Shown piece by piece: positions 4,404 to 11,800 of a stretch of DNA of 64,000 bases (position 1 is its first letter; each line of letters begins with the position of its first letter). The notes beneath the pieces were generated by a model, which was given only the letters and a program-made list of their open reading frames with translations, was not told the DNA's origin and made no database searches. The translations under genes and the position numbers were made by a program. This DNA comes from Rhizobium sp. AC27/96 (GTDB lineage Bacteria; Pseudomonadota; Alphaproteobacteria; Rhizobiales; Rhizobiaceae): positions 868,001 to 932,000 of the forward strand of contig NZ_LXKN01000001.1 of assembly GCF_001692325.1 (NCBI RefSeq), in the 5' to 3' direction.

Positions 4404-4458
4404 TCAGCGAAAAGAAATCATATCCCGGTTTGGTGAAACCATATCAGGGAAAACCTCA

Positions 4459-4500
4459 GGGCATCGCGTGACAACGCGGTGCCCTTCGTGTATCCGGCTT
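4459..4500 (+). terminator. Terminator-like hairpin after tsf
   Basis: GGGCATCGCG (4459-4468) pairs with CGCGGTGCCC (4475-4484) with one G-U and a 6-base loop. Only a T-poor tail follows, so termination may be partial and pyrH may be read through. Confidence 0.5.
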
Positions 4501-4537
4501 TCACAATCATCCCCCGCGATCACCTCAAGGAGCCACG

Positions 4538-5257
4538 ATGTCTCAGCCGATCTACAAGCGCGTACTGCTAAAGGCCTCAGGTGAAGCCCTTATGGGCAGC
4601 CAAGGCTTCGGTATCGACGTTACCGTCTCCGACCGGATTGCCTCCGATATCGCCGAAGCGCGCGCAATGGGCGTCGAAGTCGGCGTCGTCGTCGGCGGCG
4701 GCAATATCTTCCGCGGCGTCGCAGTGGCCTCCAAGGGCGGCGACCGCGTCACCGGCGACCATATGGGCATGCTGGGAACCGTTATAAACGCGCTGGCGCT
4801 GGCGACGTCGCTGCGCAAGCTCGACATCGAGACCGTGGTGTTATCAGCCATTTCCATGCCGGAGATCTGCGAGAGCTTCTCGCAGCGCGCTACGCTCTAT
4901 CACCTCTCGCTTGGCCGCGTGGTGATCTTTGCCGGCGGCACCGGCAATCCGTTCTTCACGACTGATTCCGCGGCGGCCCTGCGCGCTGCCGAAATGGGCG
5001 CACAGGCGATCTTCAAGGGCACGCAGGTCGACGGCATCTATTCCGCCGATCCGAAGAAGTTCCCAGATGCCGAGCGTTTCGATCACCTGACGCACAGCCA
5101 GGTGCTGGAAAAGGGATTGGCGGTCATGGATGTGGCAGCCGTGGCGCTTGCGCGGGAAAACTCCATTCCGATCATTGTTTTCTCTATTCATGAGAAGGGC
5201 GGCTTCGGGGAAATCTTGACCGGCGGCGGCCGCAAGACCATCGTATCAGACAATTGA
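4538..5257 (+). CDS. pyrH: UMP kinase
   Basis: UMP kinase phosphorylates UMP to UDP in pyrimidine nucleotide synthesis. The 239-residue protein belongs to the amino-acid kinase fold: [12 protein letters not shown] at the N-terminus, [11 protein letters not shown] (phosphate-binding loop), [13 protein letters not shown], and [15 protein letters not shown], all hallmarks of bacterial PyrH. A ribosome site (AAGGAG) lies about 6 bases before the ATG. frr follows 55 bases downstream in the conserved translation/UMP kinase cluster. Confidence 0.97.
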
Positions 5258-5979: not shown

Positions 5980-6726
5980 ATGTCAGCTCCTACGTTCTCT
6001 GTCGTACCCGAACACGTCGCCATCATCATGGATGGCAACGGGCGTTGGGCCAACGCGCGCGGCCTGCCGCGCACCATGGGCCACCGCAAGGGCGTGGAGG
6101 CCGTTCGGGAAACGGTACGGGCGGCCGGCGATATCGGCATAAAATATCTGACGCTCTTTGCGTTCTCCTCCGAGAATTGGCGCCGCCCGGAGACGGAGGT
6201 CAGCGACCTCCTCGGTCTTCTCAAGGCCTTCATCCGGCGAGATCTTGCCGAGCTTCACCGACAGAACGTGCGGATCCGCGTCATCGGCGATCGCAGCAAC
6301 CTGCGTGGCGATATTCTGCCGCTGCTGATCGAGGCCGAAGAGACCACCAGGAACAACACGGCCCTGACGCTGGTCATTGCATTCAATTATGGCTCGCGCG
6401 ACGAGATTGTGCGGGCTTTTGCGAGCCTGGCCAGGGACGTTGAGGCGGGACGCCTGCGTCCGCAGGACATAAGTCCGGATTTGGTCGGCGCCCGCCTGGA
6501 TACAGCCGGAATCCCCGATCCGGACCTCATCATCCGCACGAGCGGCGAGGAGCGGCTGTCGAACTTCCTGCTTTGGCAGGCGGCCTATTCGGAATTCATG
6601 TTCATGCCCGAATACTGGCCCGACTTTAGCCGCGATCTCTTCTTTGCAGCGCTGGAGAAATATGCCGCGCGCGACCGGCGATTTGGCGGTCTTTCCGCCA
6701 AGCCGGCGGCGGCCGTGGGGTCCTGA
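5980..6726 (+). CDS. uppS: Isoprenyl transferase (undecaprenyl diphosphate synthase)
   Basis: This cis-prenyltransferase extends farnesyl diphosphate to undecaprenyl diphosphate, the lipid carrier for peptidoglycan and O-antigen. The protein has 248 residues. The catalytic region [10 protein letters not shown] places the key Asp at residue 18. [11 protein letters not shown] and the C-terminal [12 protein letters not shown] and MPEYWPDF segments are diagnostic. Its stop overlaps the cdsA start by one base (TGATG), so the two are probably translationally coupled. Confidence 0.97.
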
Positions 6727-7559
6727 TGAGCCGCGAACTCAGGCTGCGTATCATTTCCGGCATCATCCTTGCCGTCATCGTTCTCGCGGCCACCTGGTAT
6801 GGCGGCCTGGGCTTTCGTGTTCTCGCGGCGGCCATAGGCCTGCTCGTCTATTATGAGTGGTCGACGATAACGGACCTGCATGGCCGCGATCCGCAGGGAA
6901 ATGCGCTCGGTTGGCTCGGCCTTGTCTTGATCGCCGGTGCAACCCTGATGGGCGAATCGGTGTACTCCGTCGAGGTCCTGGCTGCTTTTGTTGCCGCGAC
7001 TGCGGTCATGGCCGGTGTCCGGCGAAAAAGCTGGTGGCTGCCCGGCGGCGTTTTCTATTCCGGATTGACCGCGATTGCCCTTGCCGAGATTCGCGATGAC
7101 GATCTGCGCGGCTTCGTGTTGATGCTGTTCATCTTCGCCACCGTCTGGGCAACCGATATCTTTGCCTATTTCGTCGGCCGTGCGATCGGCGGGGCGAAGC
7201 TCGCGCCGAGCATCTCGCCGGGCAAGACCTGGTCAGGCGCGATCGGCGGTGCCATTGCCGCCGTTATTGCGGGGACCGCTGTCGTCTGGAGCTATTTTTC
7301 CGCCGATGATCTGAGGGTGCCGATCCTGGCGCTGGTACTGTCCATATGCAGCCAGATCGGCGATTTATTCGAGTCTTTCATCAAGCGCCGTTTCGGCGTG
7401 AAGGATTCAAGCCACCTGATTCCTGGCCATGGCGGCGTCATGGATCGGGTCGATGGACTAATTTTTGCTTGTTTTGCGGCGTTTTTGTTGGCTATCGTAA
7501 TATCGCTGACAATGAGCGGCGAGACCTTGTCATTGGGCGGCGTTCTGCTCGGTGTCTGA
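6726..7559 (+). CDS. cdsA: Phosphatidate cytidylyltransferase
   Basis: CdsA makes CDP-diacylglycerol from phosphatidate and CTP in the inner membrane, the precursor of all phospholipids including the phosphatidylcholine made by the pcs gene at the end of this window. The 277-residue protein is strongly hydrophobic with multiple membrane segments. The family signature runs about residues 217-243 (SFIKRRFGVKD, then HGGVMDRVD). The start overlaps the uppS stop, and rseP begins 24 bases after its stop. Confidence 0.97.
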   Translation: MSRELRLRIISGIILAVIVLAATWYGGLGFRVLAAAIGLLVYYEWSTITDLHGRDPQGNALGWLGLVLIAGATLMGESVYSVEVLAAFVAATAVMAGVRRKSWWLPGGVFYSGLTAIALAEIRDDDLRGFVLMLFIFATVWATDIFAYFVGRAIGGAKLAPSISPGKTWSGAIGGAIAAVIAGTAVVWSYFSADDLRVPILALVLSICSQIGDLFESFIKRRFGVKDSSHLIPGHGGVMDRVDGLIFACFAAFLLAIVISLTMSGETLSLGGVLLGV

Positions 7560-7583
7560 AACTAACACGAACAGGATCGTTGC

Positions 7584-9257
7584 ATGGGTGCCGCTGCTGG
7601 CTTCATCGGGTTTTTAACGAACAACGTCATCACGTTTGTTTTTGTCCTGTCGCTGCTCGTTTTTGTGCATGAGATGGGCCACTATCTGGTCGGCCGCTGG
7701 TCCGGTATCCGCATCATGGCCTTTTCGATCGGTTTCGGTCCGGAGATTGCCGGCTTTACCGATCGCCATGGTACACGCTGGAAACTCTCGCTTATTCCGC
7801 TTGGCGGCTATGTGCGCTTCTTCGGCGACGAGGATGCCTCGAGCAAGACCGATGTCGATCAACTGTCGGCAATGACGGAGGAGGAGCGGGCCCAATCCTT
7901 CGCTGGTGCCAAGCTCTGGAAGCGGGCCGCGACGGTTGCAGCCGGTCCGATTGCAAATTTCATTCTCGCCATCGCCATCTTTGCCGTGCTCTTCAGCATT
8001 TACGGTCGCACCGCGGCCGATCCCGTGGTTGCCATGGTAACGCGTGACGGCGCCGCTGCCGAGGCCGGTATCGAGCCTGGCGACCGGCTGGTTGCCATCG
8101 ACGGTGTCAAGATCACCACTTTCGACGAGGTGCAGCGCTATGTCGGGCTGCGCCCGGGCCGCACCATCACGCTGAGCGTCGAACGCGATGGTCAGAAGCG
8201 CGACTTCAAGATTATTCCGAAACTGGTTGAGGACACCGATCAGTTCGGCAACAAGATGGAGATGGGCCGCATCGGCATCGCATTGGTCGATCCGCTGGTT
8301 ACTGCCATCGAGCCGGCCGGCCCCGCGGCAAAGGCTGGTATATTGGCTGGAGATCGGCTGGTTGCCGTCGATGGCAACAATGTCGCCACCTATTACGATA
8401 TCGGTCGCTACGTCAGTGATCGCCCCGGCAAGAGCATTGTCCTGACTGTGCAGCGTAATGGCCAGATACGCGATTTTCCGGTGGTTCCCGAGAAGCTGAC
8501 CGACACCGACGCCTCCGGCAACAAAAAGGATGTGGGCAGCATCGGTATCGCTCCGATCGATCCGCTGGTCGGGTCGATCGCTCCCGATAGCCCCGCGGAA
8601 GCGGCGGGCCTCGAGCTCGGCGATCGCATTCTTTCTGTGGATGGACGTGCCGTCAGCTCTATCGGTGAAGTGCAGCGTTATGCCGCCGCGCATGCCGACA
8701 AGCCGGTGACCCTGTCGGTCGAACGCAATGGCCAGGCGCGTGACCTGCCTGTGACGCCGAAGAAGTCGGAGGAGGCGGATGCCTTCGGCACCCAGACGGA
8801 GATCGCCACTATCGGCATCACGGACGGACAGAAGCCGATCAAGCTGCGCTACGAGGCCTATGGGCCGCTACAGGCCGTGGGCGAGGGCGTGAAGCAGACC
8901 GGGAGCATCATCTCGGGAACCTTCGAATATCTCGCCAACGTCATCGGCGGCTACATGAAGGCCGATCAGCTGGGTGGCCCCATCAGGGTTGCACAGCTTT
9001 CGGGGCAAATGGCAACCCTGGGTTTTGCTGCGGTGCTTCAGTTCGCCGCCATACTTTCTGTTTCAATAGGGTTATTAAATTTGATGCCGGTGCCGGTACT
9101 TGATGGCGGGCATCTGATGTTCTATGCGATTGAAGCCGTAAGGGGAAAACCGTTGGGTGCACGGGCACAGGATATCGCTTTCCGGATTGGATTTGCGATG
9201 GTGTTGTCACTCATGGTGTTTGCGACATGGAACGATATTAGTTCCAGATTAGGCTAG
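7584..9257 (+). CDS. rseP: RseP-type site-2 zinc metalloprotease with three tandem PDZ domains
   Basis: This is a membrane-embedded site-2 protease; family members cleave anti-sigma factors or signal-peptide remnants within the membrane. The zinc motif HEMGH is at residues 29-33 and the second metal motif LDGG at 506-509, each in a hydrophobic segment. Between them lie three PDZ-like repeats at an exact 90-residue period: AGIEPGDRLVAIDG at 161, AGILAGDRLVAVDG at 251 and AGLELGDRILSVDG at 341. At 557 residues it is about 180 longer than the single-PDZ rhizobial form I remember, which corresponds to two extra units. It sits between cdsA and bamA, as in other Gram-negative bacteria. Confidence 0.93.
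   Translation: MGAAAGFIGFLTNNVITFVFVLSLLVFVHEMGHYLVGRWSGIRIMAFSIGFGPEIAGFTDRHGTRWKLSLIPLGGYVRFFGDEDASSKTDVDQLSAMTEEERAQSFAGAKLWKRAATVAAGPIANFILAIAIFAVLFSIYGRTAADPVVAMVTRDGAAAEAGIEPGDRLVAIDGVKITTFDEVQRYVGLRPGRTITLSVERDGQKRDFKIIPKLVEDTDQFGNKMEMGRIGIALVDPLVTAIEPAGPAAKAGILAGDRLVAVDGNNVATYYDIGRYVSDRPGKSIVLTVQRNGQIRDFPVVPEKLTDTDASGNKKDVGSIGIAPIDPLVGSIAPDSPAEAAGLELGDRILSVDGRAVSSIGEVQRYAAAHADKPVTLSVERNGQARDLPVTPKKSEEADAFGTQTEIATIGITDGQKPIKLRYEAYGPLQAVGEGVKQTGSIISGTFEYLANVIGGYMKADQLGGPIRVAQLSGQMATLGFAAVLQFAAILSVSIGLLNLMPVPVLDGGHLMFYAIEAVRGKPLGARAQDIAFRIGFAMVLSLMVFATWNDISSRLG
8025..8834 (+). repeat. Three tandem 270-bp units encoding PDZ domains inside rseP
   Basis: Residues 148-417 of the RseP protein form three consecutive 90-residue units with the same internal landmarks: AGxxxGDR, VQRY or GRY, RxGQxRDxxxxP, and an acidic linker before a GxIGI segment in the first two units. 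The last unit is the most divergent at its end. The exact period indicates in-frame tandem duplication of 270 bases, diverged but still in register. Confidence 0.85.
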
Positions 9258-9451: not shown

Positions 9452-11800
9452 GTGAAAATGAAGGCTGGTTCAAGATTATTGAACGCAGTGTCGGCGGTAG
9501 CGCTGTCTGCTGGTGTTGTTGCGTCGGGCGCTGGTGTTATCACCCTTGCCTCTGCCTCAGTTGCGGAAGCCGCTGTTATTCAGCGGGTCGATGTCCAGGG
9601 TGCCGAGCGCATCGGGGCAACGGCTGTTCGTGATAATATCACGATCAAGCCCGGCAAGAGCTTCTCTCCCGCCGATATCGATTCATCGGTGAAGCAGCTT
9701 TATGCGACCGGATACTTCTCCGATGTGCATATCAGCGTTTCGGGCAGCGCGCTTGTCGTCTCCGTCAAGGAAAACCAGCTGATCAACGCTGTGGTTTTCA
9801 ACGGCAACCACAAGATCAAGGACGACAAGCTTCAGGGCATCGTGCAGACGCATGCTGCCGGTCCCTACAACGAAGCCAGCGTCCAAGCCGATATCAAGAC
9901 CATCAAGGACGCCTACGCTTCGATTGGCCGTAACGACGTCCAGGTGACGACGCAGACCGCAGAGGTCGCGCAGGGCCGCCTCAACGTGGCCTTCGTCATC
10001 AATGAAGGCGACCGTACCAAGATCGACAAGATCAACTTCTCGGGCAACCAGGCTTACGGCAGCGGCCGTCTTGCTTCGGTCATCAGCACCAAGAAGAGCA
10101 ACTTCCTTTCCTTCCTGACGCGTAAGGACGTGTATAGCCCGGAACGCCAGCAGGCCGACCAGGACACGCTGCGCCAGTTCTACTACAATCACGGTTATGC
10201 CGACTTCCGAATCGTCAGCGCCGATGCGACGCTGAATGAGCAGAACAACGAATATACCCTGAACTTCAACGTCGACGAAGGTCCGCGCTACAATTACGGC
10301 GATATCAACGTCGTCTCGACGGTCGATGGCGTCAACGCCGAGGAACTGAAGGGTCTCGTTATCACGCATAAGGGCGATGTTTACAGCGCCAAGGATATCC
10401 AGACCTCGATCGAGAACATTTCCAAGCGCGTCGCTGCCGCCGGCTACCCGTTCGCGCGCATCACGCCACGCGGGAACCGCGATCTGACCGGTCACACGAT
10501 CGGTATCGAATATCTGGTTGACCAGGGTGAGCGCGCTTATGTTGAGCGCATCGAAATCCGCGGCAACACCCGCACGCGCGATTACGTCATCCGCCGCGAA
10601 TTCGACCTGAACGAAGGCGACGCCTTCAACCAGGAAATGATCACGCGCGCCAAGCGTCGTCTTGATGCCCTCGGCTACTTCACCAAGGTTGACATCACCA
10701 CGGCGCAGGGCAGTGCCGCTGACCGTGTTGTCGTTATCGTCAATGTCGAAGACCAGCCGACCGGCTCGTTCGGTATCGGTGCTGGCTACGCTGTCGGCAA
10801 CAACGGCGGTCTGCTTCTGGAAGCCTCTGTGGAAGAAAAGAACTTCCTCGGCCGTGGTCAGTATATCCGCATCGCAGCGGGTGCCGGCACGGAAGGCAAT
10901 CGTACCTATAACGTCTCGTTCACCGAGCCCTACTTCCTCGGTTATCGTCTGGCCGCCGGTTTCGATATCTTCAAGAACCAGACGTCGAGCGCCGACTACT
11001 ATGATTATTCGGAAGAAGGCTTCTCGCTGCGCGTCACCGCGCCGATCACCGAGAACCTGGCGACGACCCTGCGTTATAACTACAAGAAGCTGACATACGA
11101 CGGCACGAACGATTGGCAGGACAATCTTTCGCGCGCATATGTCAATCTGATTGATAACGGTCCCTGGACCCAGTCAACGATTTCGCAGACCTTTACCTAC
11201 AACACGCTGGACGATCAGAATCTGCCGCGTGAAGGCTTCATCGCCAAGTTCACGCATGAATTTGCAGGCCTCGGCGGCGACTCCAACTTCTACAAGCTGA
11301 GCGGCAAGGCCCGTTACTACCAGATGATCAGCGACGAAGCCGATATCATCGGCTCGCTGACGGTTGGTGCCGGTTACGTGATGCCGACGGATGGCAGCAA
11401 GCTGAACGTGTTCGACCAGTTCACGCTCGGTGGCCGTGAAATCCGCGGCTTCCAGAATGCTGGTATCGGTCCTCGTGTCGGCAATAACGATAACAACCCG
11501 CTCGGTGGCACGACTTACTTCACCGCTTCGGCTGAAGCGAGCATGCCGATGCCGGGCGTACCGCAGGACATCGGTCTGCGTCTCGCAGCATTCGCGGACG
11601 CGGGTACGCTCTACGGTAACAAGGCGAATTCCTTCGGCGATTCGGTTTACAACGATAGTTCGATCCGAGCTTCGCTCGGTGCAGGCCTGATCTGGTCGTC
11701 GCCGTTCGGTGTCATCCGTGTTGACTATGCTGTTCCGGTTCTCAAGCAGGATTACGACCAAGTTGAGAATTTCCGGTTTGGCATCGCCAACCAGTTCTGA
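9452..11800 (+). CDS. bamA: Outer membrane protein assembly factor BamA
   Basis: BamA is the core of the machinery that folds beta-barrel proteins into the outer membrane. The 782-residue protein has a signal peptide with probable cleavage after SVAEA near residue 40, five POTRA repeats over roughly residues 41-440, then an Omp85 barrel ending in phenylalanine (NQF). GGREIRGFQ is the conserved lid-loop VRGF-like motif. Start: GTG at 9452 has an AAGG site 7-8 bases upstream; the ATG at 9458 two codons later is the alternative. The context between rseP and the lpx genes is conserved. Confidence 0.96.
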   Translation: MKMKAGSRLLNAVSAVALSAGVVASGAGVITLASASVAEAAVIQRVDVQGAERIGATAVRDNITIKPGKSFSPADIDSSVKQLYATGYFSDVHISVSGSALVVSVKENQLINAVVFNGNHKIKDDKLQGIVQTHAAGPYNEASVQADIKTIKDAYASIGRNDVQVTTQTAEVAQGRLNVAFVINEGDRTKIDKINFSGNQAYGSGRLASVISTKKSNFLSFLTRKDVYSPERQQADQDTLRQFYYNHGYADFRIVSADATLNEQNNEYTLNFNVDEGPRYNYGDINVVSTVDGVNAEELKGLVITHKGDVYSAKDIQTSIENISKRVAAAGYPFARITPRGNRDLTGHTIGIEYLVDQGERAYVERIEIRGNTRTRDYVIRREFDLNEGDAFNQEMITRAKRRLDALGYFTKVDITTAQGSAADRVVVIVNVEDQPTGSFGIGAGYAVGNNGGLLLEASVEEKNFLGRGQYIRIAAGAGTEGNRTYNVSFTEPYFLGYRLAAGFDIFKNQTSSADYYDYSEEGFSLRVTAPITENLATTLRYNYKKLTYDGTNDWQDNLSRAYVNLIDNGPWTQSTISQTFTYNTLDDQNLPREGFIAKFTHEFAGLGGDSNFYKLSGKARYYQMISDEADIIGSLTVGAGYVMPTDGSKLNVFDQFTLGGREIRGFQNAGIGPRVGNNDNNPLGGTTYFTASAEASMPMPGVPQDIGLRLAAFADAGTLYGNKANSFGDSVYNDSSIRASLGAGLIWSSPFGVIRVDYAVPVLKQDYDQVENFRFGIANQF

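Follow-up and report, generated by a model that had tools for sequence, protein, structure and literature searches.

The window (the whole stretch of 64,000 nucleotides analysed, from Rhizobium sp. AC27/96) contains the gene block pyrH-frr-uppS-cdsA-rseP-bamA-lpxD, with cdsA, bamA and the remaining names assigned presumptively. The features that bear on the analysis are the following.

6726..7559, + strand: cdsA, 5' neighbour, separated from rseP by a gap of 24 nt (open reading frame; used in the neighbour tree)
7584..9257, + strand: rseP, site-2 protease (RIP metalloprotease) of 557 aa with three PDZ units (open reading frame, TIGR00054, Peptidase_M50)
7668..7682, + strand: HEMGH zinc/active-site motif, residues 29-33, in TM1 (sequence)
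7713..7823, + strand: predicted beta hairpin, residues 44-80 (model strands 44-59 and 65-79)
8016..8285, + strand: PDZ unit 1 (U1), residues 145-234, read as the orthologue of the single PDZ in other Rhizobium (identity, HMM, trees)
8286..8555, + strand: PDZ unit 2 (U2), residues 235-324, read as an added copy (HMM, trees)
8556..8825, + strand: PDZ unit 3 (U3), residues 325-414, read as an added copy, the least conserved (HMM, pN/pS)
8826..8951, + strand: region after the PDZs with a predicted H1-like helix, residues 415-456 (model, diagnostic sites)
9099..9113, + strand: LDGGH motif, residues 506-510 (sequence; invariant in 71 aligned proteins)
9452..11800, + strand: bamA, 3' neighbour of rseP (open reading frame; used in the neighbour tree)

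The rseP product scored above the cut-off of the curated RIP metalloprotease RseP model TIGR00054 (357.7 bits over two stretches, cut-off 147.55) and matched Peptidase_M50 (PF02163; 8.6e-71, 238.2 bits, cut-off 27.2). It also has the other marks of a Group I site-2 protease (M50, TIGR00054), namely HExxH in TM1, an LDG motif near TM3 and at least one PDZ domain between TM2 and TM3, here three. Residues H29, E30, G32 and H33 are unchanged across the 71 aligned proteins (RseP alignment A1, with ten of 80 named loci left out). These characters point to a membrane-embedded zinc protease of the site-2 type, for which intramembrane proteolysis is predicted. In the structure model, a helix at residues 111-140 precedes the PDZs and another at 480-500 comes after them, and the hairpin at 44-80 can be likened, by position alone, to the membrane-reentrant beta loop of E. 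coli RseP. Residues 415-456 are similarly likened by position to the PCT/H1 region of the E. coli enzyme as set out in PMC7728848. A search of the window's genome for a second RseP found none, the next matches reaching at most 22.5 bits. The gene names of the block agree with the rseP neighbourhood described in PMC6411480, which places dxr among the frequent neighbours of rseP; dxr is absent from the gap between cdsA and rseP in the window (7559-7584).

The original prediction held that three PDZ units lie in register between HEMGH and LDGG at an exact 90-residue period, and both points were borne out. AGxxxGDR starts at residues 161, 251 and 341, and self-comparison of residues 145-414 gave 46% identity at a shift of 90, whereas the runner-up shift reached 11.8% and the median over shifts 20-179 was 6.6%; Pfam PDZ_6 (3e-43) and PDZ_2 (5.3e-38) each matched three stretches. 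Protein identity between the units of the window is 50% for U1/U2 and 42% for both U1/U3 and U2/U3; the corresponding DNA identities are 63, 58.5 and 55.6%, and the longest direct repeats reported within rseP measure 13 nt. An assembly error at 270-base repeats had been named as a possible source of the pattern, and a misassembled repeat is excluded because the units share only 56-63% of their DNA; the form moreover recurs in 41 of 148 Rhizobium genomes. The diverged unit DNA, the shortness of the direct repeats and this recurrence likewise rule out a recent copy, and the PDZ duplication is, judged from the sequences, an old one. Large contigs (3.8 to 4.6 Mb) bear the triple rseP in genomes G109, G124, G166, G017 and G083.

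Those 41 genomes comprise 39 with an intact three-PDZ gene and two in which it is incomplete: in G083 (locus L122, a four-contig assembly) there is a frameshift near residue 520, real or an error, and in G003 the gene is split across two contigs. The other 107 carry RseP with one PDZ, and none of the 148 carries RseP with two. Single-PDZ orthologues in near relatives had been expected if the form is unusual, and they are indeed present, as a form of about 377 aa: 105 of the 107 measure 375, 377 or 384 aa when trimmed by alignment to the start of the window RseP. PDZ counts accordingly do not make the three-PDZ form that of most Rhizobium. The single-PDZ protein has the same catalytic motifs and lies between the same flanking genes in the 106 single-PDZ genomes fetched, but it lacks two of the 90-residue units. 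In the two remaining single-PDZ cases the gene is disrupted. In genome G079 (C1:1193040-1194160) the reading frame is interrupted around residue 51-55, through either a true mutation or a sequencing error. In G090 (locus L163, 5858..3803, - strand) an insertion splits the gene between the PDZ and TM3 and contains, on the opposite strand, an ORF (4458-5042) that resembles a transposase by eye; this strain possibly does without a complete RseP.

A scan of named genomes returned 12 triples (one partial) among the best 80 loci, including R. rhizogenes 17-2069-2c, R. tropici SARCC-755, R. freirei PRF 81, R. mayense and R. calliandrae, together with several Rhizobium sp., isolates and one MAG. Matches of single-PDZ length among the same 80 came from R. 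anhuiense, R. esperanzae, R. sophoriradicis, R. mongolense, Agrobacterium, Neorhizobium, Shinella and Ensifer. We presumptively label the group with three units the tropici/rhizogenes clade. Outside the genus, no RseP with three units was found among the matches listed for samples of 394 genomes of the family, 397 of the order, 142 of the class and 150 of the phylum, screened as frames read from stop to stop and with the long frames of G688, G781 and G716 left out; the 569-aa frame of G1086 has two PDZ units on inspection.

The descent of the three-unit form was examined with a tree of the six flanking genes (pyrH, frr, uppS, cdsA, bamA and lpxD; 6276 nt) from 146 genomes of the genus, that is all except the split G003 and the unfetched G079, and 13 from other genera. 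All 40 triples for which both flanks were present fall within one clade (FastTree support 1.0), which includes no single-PDZ genome. The next branches are the singles G034 and G029 (42-row node 0.987; the pair itself 0.69), followed by the singles G036, G110 and G169 (45-row node 1.0). Trees of the units themselves were built from 12 of the 39 triples with 24 of 117 singles (the single-unit set kept after leaving out L163 and L220), and from 4 triples, 9 singles and 8 two-unit proteins. U1, U2 and U3 are each one clade in the former; in the latter the three together form a clade at 98/95 and join the singles G036 and G034 at 97/89, the same split reaching 100/96 in the 12-triple tree. U2 and U3 group at 93/85 in the 12-triple tree, so which of the two duplications came first is not established with confidence. 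On average, identity to the nearest five singles is highest for U1 (65.5%) and lower for U2 (49%) and U3 (36%), and an HMM of the 117 single units gave mean scores of 134, 95 and 79 bits, respectively; U1 has a mean identity of 57-66% to single units. U1 is, by these comparisons, the orthologue of the single-PDZ Rhizobium unit, and because of the unit trees, identities and HMM scores the added copies are taken as made from RseP's own PDZ, an event placed on the clade stem. Other PDZ proteins of the genome were considered as donors and rejected, since the PDZs of L031/L032, L033 and L034 score at most 36.5 bits with the single-unit HMM (L035 lay outside the scoring). The two units were added in place on the stem of the triple clade, apparently once, and then kept.

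Whether such units are merely carried along bears on one alternative, a constructive-neutral growth in which the duplication was tolerated and the core then adjusted, so that removal of the extra units would now misfold or destabilise the protein. Across the 39 triples, pN/pS is 0.06 for residues 1-144, 0.10 for U1, 0.25 for U2, 0.30 for U3 and 0.07 for residues 415-557; the values for 88 single-PDZ genes are 0.16 ahead of the PDZ, 0.22 within it and 0.18 behind it, all to be read with pS near 0.4-0.5 and partly saturated. U2 and U3 are the most variable units, and their looser values relative to U1 fit neutral growth. The same figures nevertheless indicate purifying selection on every unit, with U2 and U3 under much the same constraint as the PDZ of single-PDZ Rhizobium (0.22), which neutral growth would not lead one to expect. 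Nor would it predict a clade of 40 from which no genome has returned to a single PDZ, or the complete lack of gaps in the 557 columns of the 39 intact copies; yet cdsA and pyrH are equally free of gaps in the same clade, whereas lpxD has 12, frr 14, bamA 5 and uppS 1. We regard neutral growth as unlikely, although two further observations given below, the excess change on the stem and the recurrence of tandems, are in its favour.

Change along the stem of the triple clade is unevenly distributed over the protein. With the neighbour topology fixed (155 rows), the length of the triple stem relative to the tree outside the clade reaches 0.060 in U1 and 0.061 in residues 415-557, compared with 0.019 for the N part (residues 15-144) and 0.006-0.026 for the six neighbours, while rates within the triple clade are ordinary. 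Positions fixed in the triples and rare in the singles were compared between 39 triples and 104 of the 117 singles, the outgroup L229 and 12 singles with a C part of 141 residues being left out. This gave 32 clade-diagnostic core positions: five among the 144 residues of the N part, 13 among the 90 of U1 and 14 among the 143 that follow the PDZs; nine of the 42 residues at 415-456 are among them, and some lie at unit junctions (233, 234, 415 and 418). A Fisher test of U1 plus the C part against the N part gave p = 0.007, which is indicative only, the sites sharing one branch. Nineteen control clades (10-51 members, partly overlapping) had 0-9 diagnostic positions in all, and those with the longest stems (0.0645-0.089) had 0-3, the triple stem being longer at 0.101; under a stricter rule six core positions were left, mostly mild changes. 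U1 and the part after the PDZs thus carry excess stem change, but the N-terminal catalytic part evolves at an ordinary pace. This excess may be co-adaptation, or relaxed constraint instead, and it would fit the compensation that neutral growth calls for.

The uneven divergence also raises the possibility that a long PDZ and C-terminal part was imported by recombination from a distant multi-PDZ RseP. Such an import would make divergence on the stem unusually high in U1 and the C part but not in the N part, as observed, and the N and C parts of the triples do rank different singles first. Against this, in a ranking of 176 non-triples by similarity, in which some named loci duplicate other genomes of the set, the five nearest singles stand at 2, 3, 6, 7 and 8 for the C part and at 3, 5, 6, 10 and 42 for U1, and the units nest beside them in the unit tree. 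The same five rank only 96-151 for the N part, and their own N parts are divergent. Import is therefore highly improbable, and our reading of the divergence pattern is that it reflects change in place.

Duplication of PDZ units in RseP has taken place elsewhere in the order as well. When 397 genomes of the order were screened with U2+U3, RseP proteins with two in-register units came to light. Of 12 loci examined, seven (L330-L335 and L342, Hyphomicrobiales) have both catalytic motifs and, between HExxH and LDG, two units at a spacing of about 91 residues. One unit is present in L338, L339 and L340, and L341 lacks both motifs together. L336 (genome G478, C162:7055-7567) has two PDZ units in a 460-aa RseP-like frame in which the pattern used found no HExGH; this second frame, possibly contamination, stands alongside an RseP of 386 aa on another contig of G478. 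In the tree with the eight two-unit proteins, the unit pairs are mutual closest relatives in L332 (99/97) and L335 (97/94). In L330/L331 the D1 units group at 100/96, the D2 units at 99/93 and all four at 91/70, so that a third duplication was probably shared in this lineage; L333, L334, L336 and L342 received no resolved placement. Setting aside gene conversion, which could mimic separate duplications, two-unit tandems arose separately from the Rhizobium event, at least twice. This recurrence in the order adds to the case for neutral growth, because it implies that the duplication event is an easy one.

Structure modelling, which had been proposed as a check, indicated that the three PDZ units each fold confidently, with their mutual orientation not fixed by the models. 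AlphaFold2 gave a mean pLDDT of 74.6 and a pTM of 0.62 for the whole protein (71 sequences; 64-93 per ten-residue block in the PDZ stretch) and 82.3 and 0.69 for the PDZ module alone (12 sequences), and because of these pTM values the orientation of the units is not trustworthy. E. coli RseP 7w6x is the best solved match of the whole model (Foldseek 1.2e-34; VIA Z 28.5, rmsd 10.0 over 427 residues). It and Aquifex aeolicus RseP (9j82, 9j83) are both near the top of the solved structures matched by sequence and by fold. Both of these proteins also have their PDZs between TM2 and TM3, but two of them where the window protein has three, and the U1-U2 pair superposes poorly on the Aquifex tandem (5.8-10.3 A over 164-167 residues). 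A unit of the module model aligns with MucP PDZ2 (Z 16.1, rmsd 1.4 over 86), E. coli PDZ2 (Z 15.1, rmsd 1.7 over 90) and E. coli PDZ domain A (Z 12.1, rmsd 2.2 over 84), and single units are predicted to fit RseP PDZ-C-type domains. The PDZ-N/PDZ-C pair of the E. coli type is absent, the units of the window protein all descending from one single PDZ, and the E. coli-type model NF008046 scored 333.3 bits, below its cut-off of 477.

The PDZ tandem of E. coli RseP is described, in PMC7728848, as a size-exclusion filter that is affected by the helix H1 behind it, and the region after the PDZs is said there to join the tandem to the protease domain. It is on account of this filter model, for which we draw on the review PMC10202637, and of work on Sinorhizobium fredii RseP (PMC8822346) that we infer a gate function for the added units. 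An ordinary site-2 protease went from one PDZ to three in place on the tropici/rhizogenes stem, and on balance we consider it moderately probable that it acquired a taller, more selective gate in this way. The original prediction had also proposed a longer gate that could alter substrate access; the excess stem change behind the PDZs and the three confidently modelled units bear on that proposal. In this likeliest reading, whose clients and geometry are putative and drawn by analogy, three PDZ units would form a taller or more selective periplasmic filter above the active site. The PDZ gate would be re-docked to the membrane domain via the helix that follows the units, in the region with excess change along that stem. 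A client membrane protein would then need further trimming, or a suitable new C-terminus, before its TM segment could be cleaved. The variability of U2 and U3, the loosely fixed geometry and a possible relaxation of constraint on the stem speak against this reading, as do the groove columns discussed below.

A broader and more tentative proposal is that the number of PDZ units in alphaproteobacterial RseP serves as an evolvable ruler, a unit of about 90 residues being repeatedly duplicated in place, with each step resetting the length of periplasmic stub that permits cleavage and the helix after the PDZs being re-tuned. This would take in both the step from one unit to three in the R. tropici/rhizogenes clade and the steps from one to two, at least twice, elsewhere. 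PDZ number is already known to vary in this protease group, and the three-PDZ form is a further variant. The open-licence literature searched yielded no description of a three-PDZ RseP or of RseP in Rhizobium tropici, although the 111 homologues of PMC7728848 may include three-PDZ forms. The papers cited here base their case for PDZ gating of intramembrane proteolysis largely on mutants of the E. coli enzyme with its two PDZs. Orthologues with one and three units at the same locus in one genus, with a single placed origin and close relatives that lack the added units, provide a natural experiment on the role of the gate, accompanied by mapped core changes and by separate two-unit duplications in the order. 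A swap of the gate between close one- and three-unit orthologues would be a direct test of the size-filter model.

The gate reading has to be weighed against a role for U2 and U3 as extra docking sites that bind the C-termini of particular substrates or of a periplasmic partner, rather than as a size filter. The units are modelled confidently as RseP PDZ-C-like domains, U2 and U3 diverge faster than U1, as partner-changing modules might, and, according to structure record titles, structures with peptides have been determined for the PDZ-C domains of both RseP and MucP. If docking were the role, the ligand groove might be expected to stand out. The columns that we take to form it, by our own definition based on the PDZ fold, show no significant excess of conservation over the other columns in U2 (p 0.73) or U3 (p 0.27), and groove conservation was dropped as evidence of ligand binding. 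A candidate partner is suggested by S. fredii, in which RseP activates FecI via FecR and rseP deletion mutants have been made, according to PMC8822346. FecR-domain matches (E 1e-8) do not support FecI/FecR as a constant partner: 23 of the 41 triple genomes have one or none, against 7 of the 107 singles, and all five near singles also have at most one. Four triple genomes have no FecR-domain match, two of these being incomplete assemblies. FecR is therefore unlikely as the client that explains the triple form, and docking as a whole seems to us rather doubtful. In many single-PDZ Rhizobium the FecR domain, often as the best match, lies in an open frame of about 1220-1500 aa; among the matches listed, G168 is the only triple genome with FecR in a frame of that size.
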